Shown: positions 5,517 through 61,651 of the stretch, in pieces
Numbering within the stretch: position 1 is the stretch's first letter
How the letters are laid out: each line of letters opens with the position of its first letter
Source of the DNA: Echinicola strongylocentroti
Lineage (GTDB): Bacteria; Bacteroidota; Bacteroidia; Cytophagales; Cyclobacteriaceae
Assembly (NCBI RefSeq): GCF_003260975.1
Contig: NZ_CP030041.1
Coordinates: forward strand, 4,591,501 to 4,655,500
Direction: 5' to 3'
Length of the DNA: 64,000 nucleotides
Position numbers and translations under genes: made by a program
Notes under the pieces: generated by a model
What the model saw: the letters and a program-made list of their open reading frames with translations, nothing else
What the model was told of the DNA's origin: nothing
Databases searched by the model: none

Positions 5517-5743
5517 ATAGAACGCTGATGACACAGGCTCAAAAAATGTACGCTGATCTTTTTATATTGGAGGACACATTTCTATTGCTTAATAGAAGAG
5601 AAATCCGAATTCTCTATTTGATTCTGGGTGTGCTGTGTATTCCATGAGAAATAAAATCTACTGGCAAAAAAGCGTATAATCAAATTCCAGTTTAAGGAAA
5701 AAATCAACGCAAATCTTAATCATCTGCGTCATCAGTGTTCTAT
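5517..5743. repeat. Family C inverted-repeat unit containing a truncated family B copy
   Basis: The ends ATAGAACGCTGATGAC (5517-5532) and GTCATCAGTGTTCTAT (5728-5743) are inverted repeats matching at 15 of 16 positions, with weaker inverted similarity continuing inward (ACGCTGATC versus ATCAACGC). Inside, 5612-5686 read on the minus strand matches the first half of family B (GATTATACGCTTT...TTGCCAGTAG). The gap 5305-5929 otherwise holds only the short repeats and terminator listed above; no gene was seen in it. Confidence 0.6.
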
Positions 5744-8370: not shown

Positions 8371-8545
8371 TTAAACCCGGATTATGCGTCAGGAATCGTA
8401 GTGAGAGCTGAAATTGCAAGAAAATCAGTTAGTTTGGAGGTATTAGCGTAGCATCGCTACGGTTATGCCGAAAACTAAAGTGAAACGGCTGATTTTGAAG
8501 CAGTTTCAGGTCGTAACAGATAGGCTAATGCATATTCCGGGTTAA
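8371..8545. repeat. Family A palindromic element, copy 1 (175 bp)
   Basis: The outer ends TTAAACCCGGATTATGC and GCATATTCCGGGTTAA form terminal inverted repeats, and a central hairpin (CGTAGC/GCTACG around 8446-8461) folds the whole unit into a long imperfect stem. It matches the copy at 33421-33595 over its full length with only a few substitutions. It begins six bases after the GH3 stop and fills most of the space before the GH92 gene. No coding frame; no target duplication was seen at its borders. Confidence 0.75.
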
Positions 8546-8602
8546 ACGATGAGGATAGCAAAGGGAGCGTGGGAATTGGTTTGTTAGGAAAATAATTAAA
8601 AG

Positions 8603-20262: not shown

Positions 20263-20410
20263 TTTGATTATACGCTTTCTAGTAAGTAGATTCTATTCCT
20301 CTCGGAACGCACAGAGCACCCATAATGAACTAAGACTTTTCTGATATTTCCGTGGTTTCTGTGAGAACTAATTTAATATCTCTGTGATTACTGGTGCCAT
20401 TGCGGATAAA
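20263..20410 (+). repeat. Family B element, diverged copy
   Basis: Starts TTTGATTATACGCTTTCT and ends near GCATTGCGGATAAAC-like sequence (CATTGCGGATAAA at the 3' end), matching the copies at 51251 and 61490 along its length but with many substitutions. No clear flanking direct repeat remains, so it looks like an older insertion. It occupies about half of the 314-bp gap between the GH63 and glycosyltransferase genes; nothing else was seen in that gap. Confidence 0.65.
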
Positions 20411-20484
20411 CAAAAGTTTGTTATTGAGAATCAATTTTCCCAGTATTTCCCAAATGCCTTAGCACTTAATAGTGGCAAATTGGC

Positions 20485-33420: not shown

Positions 33421-33595
33421 TTAACCCGGATTATGCATTAGGAATCGTAGTGAGAGCTGAAATTGCAAGAAAATCAGTTAGTTTGGAGGCATTAGCGTAG
33501 CACCGCTACGGTTATGCCGAAAACTAAAGTGAAACGGCTGATTTTGAAGCAGTTTAAGGTCGCAACAGATAGGCTAATGCATATTCCGGGTTTAA
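33421..33595. repeat. Family A palindromic element, copy 2 (175 bp)
   Basis: Ends TTAACCCGGATTATGCATTA and GCATATTCCGGGTTTAA are inverted. The centre folds on CGTAGC-ACC-GCTACG (33496-33510), flanked by GGCAT/ATGCC, TTAGTTT/AAACTAA and AAAATCAG/CTGATTTT pairs. The full unit is therefore one long interrupted stem. Nearly identical to the copy after the GH3 gene. Confidence 0.75.
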
Positions 33596-33802
33596 TGTAG
33601 TACCGATTCTTTTTCTTGGGGTAAGATTGTTGGGACCCTCCGGTAGCGGCCGGGGTAGATATCCTGAGGATGGAGCCACAGAAACGTTTGGTAATAACTT
33701 GGGAGAGGTAACCCCAAGTTTGAGGGAGCAATTGATCAGAATGAACCTACAATTTTTTATATTGAGCCTATCACTGCTAATCACTGCTAAAATATAAACG
33801 CT

Positions 33803-44020: not shown

Positions 44021-44139
44021 TTAAACACGGTTTATGCATCGTGGCACCGCTACGGTTACAGTAAAAACTAAAGCGAAGCGACTGATTTTATAGCAATTTC
44101 AGGTCGCAAGAGATAGGCTAATGCATATTCCGGATTAAA
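44021..44139. repeat. Family A element, copy 3 with internal deletion (119 bp)
   Basis: Keeps the inverted ends (TTAAACACGG..., ...CCGGATTAA) and the right arm, but lacks about 56 bases of the left arm and so the full hairpin. It ends 12 bp before the copB start. More diverged than copies 1 and 2. Confidence 0.65.
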
Positions 44140-51217: not shown

Positions 51218-51250
51218 GAAGGCTTCTTTTGGGAATTAACGATCAAAAAA

Positions 51251-51401
51251 TTTGATTATACGCTTTCTTGCCAGTAGTTTTTATTTCTCGCGGAACGCAC
51301 AGAAAACCCAGAATGAAACAACGCTTTTCTGAGATTTCCGTGGTTTCTGTGAGGACCTATTTCATATCTCTGTGATTACTGGTATCATTGCGGATATACA
51401 T
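51251..51401 (+). repeat. Family B element with 9-bp flanking duplication
   Basis: 151 bp from TTTGATTATACGCTTTCTTG to GCATTGCGGATATACAT-type end (CATTGCGGATATACAT). ATCAAAAAA flanks it on both sides (51242-51250 and 51402-51410). Imperfect terminal inverted repeats (TGATTATACGC versus TGTATATCCGC, 8 of 11) close the unit. Only about three bases differ from the copy at 61490. It fills most of the icmF-OsmC gap. Confidence 0.78.
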
Positions 51402-51446
51402 ATCAAAAAAATAAATTACAGTATAAAAGTTTAATTGAGTAAAGAA

Positions 51447-61430: not shown

Positions 61431-61489
61431 GCTTGTGGTGTTGAATTGTCGAATGGTGATTTCGAAGTTAGTTTGGGGATATTGGCGTT

Positions 61490-61640
61490 TTTGATTATAC
61501 GCTTTCTTGCCAGTAGTTTTTATTTCTCGCGGAACGCACAGAAAACCCAGAATGAAACAACGCTTTTCTGAGTTTTTCGTGGTTTCTGTGAGGACCTATT
61601 TCATGTCTCTGTGATTACTGGTATCATTGCGGATATACAT
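61490..61640 (+). repeat. Family B element with 9-bp flanking duplication
   Basis: 151 bp, nearly identical to the copy at 51251. ATTGGCGTT flanks it at 61481-61489 and 61641-61649 (a tenth base, T, also matches). The flanks differ completely from those of the other copy, so the repeat is a duplicated target rather than part of the element. Confidence 0.78.
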
Positions 61641-61651
61641 ATTGGCGTTTA

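Follow-up and report, generated by a model that had tools for sequence, protein, structure and literature searches.

A 152-bp putative MITE with IS1595-type ends and 8-bp target duplications in the genome of Echinicola strongylocentroti

The window analysed here is a stretch of 64,000 nucleotides of Echinicola strongylocentroti DNA (G000:C1:4591501-4655500), lying within a single-contig genome of 6,252,144 bp, and it contains several copies of a short repeated element. Copy A (51251..51402, forward strand) is 152 bp long, reads T-TTGATTATACGC ... GCGGATATACA-TA, and has a fused methylmalonyl-CoA mutase gene and an OsmC-like gene as its neighbours; copy B (61490..61641, forward strand), also 152 bp, is found beside a formyltransferase gene and a NamZ-like gene. 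BLAST alignment of the two shows 150 identical positions out of 153 (98%), with three differences. Each is flanked by its own 8-bp direct repeat, TCAAAAAA at 51243..51250 and 51403..51410 for copy A, and TTGGCGTT at 61482..61489 and 61642..61649 for copy B. Copy C (20263..20414, forward strand) is diverged, matching copy A at 128 of 150 positions (85%), with a decayed right end and without a clean target duplication, and copy D (5609..5686, reverse strand) is truncated to the left half of the element, with 61 identical positions of 70 near 5617-5686. The ends are imperfect terminal inverted repeats, TGATTATACGC versus TGTATATCCGC in one subtype and TGATTATACGC versus TGATTATCCGC in another. 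A first-pass annotation of this DNA had already described the near identity of copies A and B, the imperfect inverted ends, the diverged third copy and the inverted, truncated fourth, and all of these are borne out. A six-frame listing contains no ORF of 80 or more amino acids overlapping 51251-51402 or 61490-61641.

The element is abundant elsewhere in the genome. A pattern for the left end (allowing up to two mismatches) has 131 matches in G000 compared with 14 for the same pattern read backwards, and the right-end pattern has 88 compared with 3. The first-pass annotation had proposed searching the whole genome; profiles run over stretches chosen from these pattern matches yielded at least 113 non-overlapping copies, 87 of them full length, and a profile rebuilt from 83 aligned copies (omitting four low-scoring full-length ones) found at least 112, again with 87 full length, and no matches in reversed sequence. 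These counts are lower bounds, as 354,097 of the 6,252,144 bases were scanned, drawn from the first 100 of the 131 left-end matches and all 88 right-end matches. Using simple ORF calling with a floor of 100 amino acids, 99 of the 113 copies are intergenic (66 with tandem neighbouring genes, 23 with divergent and 10 with convergent ones), two lie within ORFs of 103 and 137 amino acids, and 12 are undecided. Orientation relative to the tandem genes is not fixed, with 31 copies in the same direction and 35 in the opposite one.

To define the extent of the element we compared the left and right flanks of all 87 full-length copies at a fixed period. The flanks agree at exactly eight positions, with agreement of 0.62-0.74 over all 87 copies and 0.86-0.98 over the 42 best copies, for which the two neighbouring positions drop to 0.64 and 0.71. 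Seven or more of the eight bases match in 39 of the 87 copies, compared with a mean of 0.96 and a maximum of five when the right flanks were dealt among the copies in 1000 shuffles. Among these 39 the left neighbour is T in 38, and the right neighbour is A in 33 regardless of the left-flank base; among the 24 with a perfect 8-bp repeat the final two bases of the element are TA in 21. Because these outside bases are nearly constant they are part of the element, and the best reading is a 152-bp unit with target duplications of 8 bp in place of a 151-bp unit with duplications of 9 bp. The targets are AT-rich, with A favoured just before the duplication (0.59) and T just after it (0.64), and the apparent ninth repeated base arises because the terminal A of the element meets a flanking A that is common through this target preference. 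The remaining 48 full-length copies match at fewer than seven bases, which is most simply explained by age.

The first-pass annotation had bracketed copies A and B with perfect 9-bp direct repeats and had used that length as a guide to the transposase family. Both 9-base strings do recur on each side of their copies, but the ninth base belongs to the element, and the guide fails, the duplication being 8 bp as it is for the IS1595 copies of congeneric genomes. Duplications of 9 bp are made by IS1, IS4/IS10/IS50 and IS903, and it is very unlikely that a transposase of such another family moved these copies. The 9-base repeats of the two window copies and the coincidence of the ninth base in 16 of the 24 perfect copies on either side would fit that explanation, but the base fails to match in the other eight on either side while the element's own base is nearly constant, and the ends match insertion sequences of the IS1595 family. 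A 9-bp target duplication was rejected on these grounds, and the example illustrates that duplication length can be misjudged when two copies happen to match at a ninth base.

The interior of approximately 98 bp contains no gene and forms a long imperfect palindrome, the consensus scoring 3 against its own reverse complement compared with a mean of −28.5 and a maximum of −2 for 200 mononucleotide shuffles. This excess, together with the placement of 99 of 113 copies between ORFs, could suggest that copies are retained because the transcribed palindrome acts as an RNA or regulatory element, such as a terminator or stability hairpin. Against this, changes on both sides of predicted pairs in the 83 aligned copies are no commoner than in shuffles (7 versus 7.6 on the plus strand and 5 versus 6.0 on the minus strand), no Rfam family reaches its gathering score in the 64-kb window (the only match to copy A is weak, with an E value of 0.62), copy A folded as DNA is unremarkable (z −0.71), and the copies among tandem genes have no fixed orientation. 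RNAalifold energies are at or near zero for the alignment and the shuffles alike, and were set aside. Because there is neither a compensatory excess nor an Rfam match at gathering score, the data give no support for an RNA function; a structurally conserved RNA was rejected, and retention for a role as an RNA or regulatory element is improbable.

An insertion sequence with matching ends, which the first-pass annotation had suggested looking for, was found in congeneric genomes. Across the genus (11 genomes including that of the window) a search with the 151-bp unit recovered full-type copies from G005 (18 matches, some of them partial) and from G010 (one), and in G002, G006 and G007 only its last ∼25 bases match. 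A search with PF12762 identified ten copies of an IS1595-type transposase in G002. At 24 of 32 IS1595-type loci (L035, L037 and L039-L068, some of which share a site: L042, L043 and L044, and also L035, L040 and L048) both ends of the insertion sequence are recognizable 1035-1042 bp apart, and 20 of these 24 have a perfect 8-bp repeat, the other four matching at three to five of the eight bases. In the 20 perfect copies the outside bases coincide in 17 on each side, so that these copies alone would not settle a length of 8 versus 9 or 10; the copies of the window element do settle it at 8 bp, and the exceptions among the congeneric copies also keep to 8. One of the 32 loci, L035 (G002:C2, around 1093400), has its IS1595 copy just past an array of 46-47-base repeats with spacers that is CRISPR-like by eye.

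The similarity between the element and these insertion sequences is confined to the ends. Over 27 bases, the right end has 25 in common with a G002 insertion sequence end, and the left end has 23 in common with a G008 end and likewise with the remnant in its own genome described below; the second right-end subtype is identical to a G009 end at all 27. With the right-hand 37 and left-hand 27 terminal bases set aside, the consensus matches none of the seven insertion sequences compared, and derivation of the interior from an insertion sequence was rejected. An example of the congeneric elements at G002:C2:320005-321046 (L037) thus has in common with the window element its ∼27-bp ends, the 8-bp duplication and AT-rich targets, and differs in being ∼1.04 kb long with a transposase gene where the window element has 152 bp and a palindromic interior. 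NF033547 and PF12762 were each scanned against two congeneric proteins, one of which was common to both scans; NF033547 matches its two at 194 and 195 bits (cut-off 75), PF12762 matches both of its own, and PF12760 exceeds its cut-off in one of these and narrowly misses it in the second. By these profile matches the scanned proteins are classed as IS1595-family transposases of the ISXO2-like DDE type, a family that makes 8-bp target duplications.

Within G000 itself PF12762 has one match, of 306 bases with an internal stop, and a profile built from five transposases hits eight stretches, made up of pieces of the main remnant, another fragment that spans 52 profile positions, matches to the zinc-ribbon in two larger frames, and one weak match. 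The IS1595-type fragments lie at G000:C1:1016702-1017192 and 1100234-1100392. The main remnant lacks its 5' part and an inner piece; aligned with the insertion sequence of G008 it is 89% identical across 423 positions, and its terminal 76 positions reach 96%. Neither search found an intact IS1595-type transposase in G000. The supposition that the element was moved by a transposase encoded elsewhere is supported as to movement in trans, with intact insertion sequences found in other species, but its own genome supplied fragments only. Because no intact transposase was found there, a source is not located in that genome, and any claim of present-day mobility is limited accordingly; an autonomous partner in the same genome, of which only fragments were found, is not a defining feature of a MITE.

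The zinc-ribbon matches in larger frames are of separate interest. At L197:1423-3315 (G000:C1:4718683-4719015) a 631-residue protein has a 7TMR-DISM membrane sensor fused to the zinc-ribbon of IS1595 transposases (PF07696, PF07695 and PF12760), giving the appearance of a membrane regulator that has co-opted a transposase DNA-binding domain. At the other locus, G000:C1:6096354-6096692, there is a profile match only, within a 656-residue frame.

One IS1595 copy in each of G003, G005 and G010 (L042, L043 and L044) is situated within a 3.46-kb stretch that also bears genes for a resolvase-type recombinase (PF00239) and a RadC-like protein (PF04002). The stretch of G010 is 99% identical to that of G003 and 98% identical to that of G005, which suggests its recent horizontal transfer. 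Related stretches in G000 have 68-74% identity, with one 128-bp piece at 86%. A passing island of this type may have been the source of the transposase.

Several observations indicate that transposition was recent. The best pair of copies is 98.7% identical (∼1.3% difference), and the intactness of the duplications falls as copies diverge: for 83 of the 87 full-length copies, intact duplications are present in 24 of 32 with a nearest-copy identity of at least 0.95, in 9 of 26 at 0.90-0.95, in 4 of 20 at 0.85-0.90, and in 1 of 5 below this. We dropped the labels 'young' and 'old' for the two right-end subtypes, as both include close pairs and the median nearest-copy identity is 0.954 for each. 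Empty sites in a close relative, another of the checks first proposed, are provided by the congener G005, which lacks the element at both window sites. At the site orthologous to that of copy A (flanks 89% and 76% identical) G005 reads straight through with a single exact copy of the target TCAAAAAA, and at the site of copy B (flanks 83% and 85% identical) the target has diverged and retains five of its eight bases. The element is likewise missing from both positions in G008 and G010, where the immediate flanks are too diverged to show the target, and two further sites in G000 (L002 and L003) have flanks that are not conserved in G005, G008 or G010. The earlier proposal of a MITE moved in trans, with recent activity in more than one wave, is supported by the number of copies, their target duplications, the lack of the element at both G005 sites and the matching congeneric insertion sequence.

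These sites also bear on whether the copies could have spread by recombination or copying of larger stretches without transposition. The copies at 835506 and 2061894 have about 30 bases of common flank on each side (32 on the left), so that one of the two could have arisen by copying of a slightly larger segment. The other sites displayed have unrelated flanks and private duplications, however, and both window copies are absent from the orthologous G005 sites, such that we regard this explanation of the family as having a negligible chance of being correct. The two loci in question (L007 and L008, G000:C1:2061894 and 835506 respectively) have nearly the same duplication, with 117 and 145 of 300 bases the same in ungapped outer flanks, and each appears to lie within a copy of a short repeated segment.

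The element has the properties of a MITE, being short (152 bp, below ∼500 bp) with inverted ends, target duplications with corresponding empty sites, and a high copy number of near-identical units; it also has those expected of an IS1595 derivative, namely the 8-bp duplication and ends in common with insertion sequences encoding a zinc-ribbon and DDE ISXO2-like transposase. We are thus confident, on sequence comparisons, that it is very probably a recently mobile, non-autonomous IS1595-type MITE with ∼27-bp IS1595-type ends and a geneless interior, moved in trans. The IS1595 family presumably provided the transposase that did the moving. An IS1595-family DDE transposase from a full insertion sequence would bind both ends and move the element, either by cut-and-paste or by copying, and the 8-bp duplications would result when the staggered 8-bp cut was repaired, in target DNA that is AT-rich and mostly intergenic. 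Full IS1595-type insertion sequences persist in sister species, with decayed remnants only found in G000, and we infer that a helper arrived and was later lost, perhaps together with a mobile island, and that the MITE may now be stranded. The right-end subtypes resemble opposite ends of IS1595-type insertion sequences, one being like one end and the other like the opposite end. More speculatively, the element could be a pure parasite of a visiting insertion sequence that burst with a passing IS1595 island and then lost its helper, with the two right-end subtypes recording two helper lineages, although we consider this fuller account doubtful.

Bacterial MITEs such as Correia, RUP and ERIC are likewise small and geneless with inverted ends and many intergenic copies, but they are associated with other transposase families and with duplication lengths that differ from that of the window element. 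The element described here is a well-resolved MITE for which recent insertions, a probable helper family, and a host with only broken helper copies have been found, and it invites the question of how non-autonomous elements survive the death of their transposase. Its main interest is that the family is large and young and that its helper seems to be broken in this host; otherwise its biology is that of ordinary mobile elements.

Matches to the element extend beyond the genus. With at most four places scored per genome, 24 of 196 genomes of the family Cyclobacteriaceae match at E ≤0.001, and the matches outside the genus are short and, save in G020 and G030, in an end region. The exact right-end pattern is present in six stretches of named genomes, four from Algoriphagus and one each from Mongoliibacter and Cecembia, a set from which records very near the genome of the window may be left out. 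Of 11 loci examined, five (in G006, G007, G062 and Cecembia rubra) hold other short elements that have ends of this kind and 8-bp duplications, and the other six have none. They include elements of 171-173 bp in G007 (L034) and G006 (L033), one of 152 bp in G006 (L038), and one of 607 bp in Cecembia rubra (L162), whose ends and duplication are the same as those at L202 in G062. The ends of all these are like those of the window element and their duplications match at eight of eight bases in L034, L038 and L162/L202 and at seven of eight in L033; L033, L034, L162 and L202 differ from it in length, and the interiors of L033, L034 and L038 read differently.

A second palindromic repeat family, of ∼175 bp and with ends TTTAACCCGGAATATGCA and TGCATAATCCGGGTTAAA, is also represented in the window, at 8371-8546, 33421-33597 and, as a partial copy, 44038-44138. 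It occurs at 22 places in the stretches of G000 that were scanned, and no target duplication is evident in the flanks displayed. G005 has more than 30 matches, 13 of which are 97-99% identical to the G000 query even though the flanks compared between G000 and G005 are only 76-89% identical. At G000:C1:5291243-5291933 (L143) four units spaced 195-196 bp apart each begin with part of the 175-bp repeat, and this array ends near the MITE copy at 5291994.
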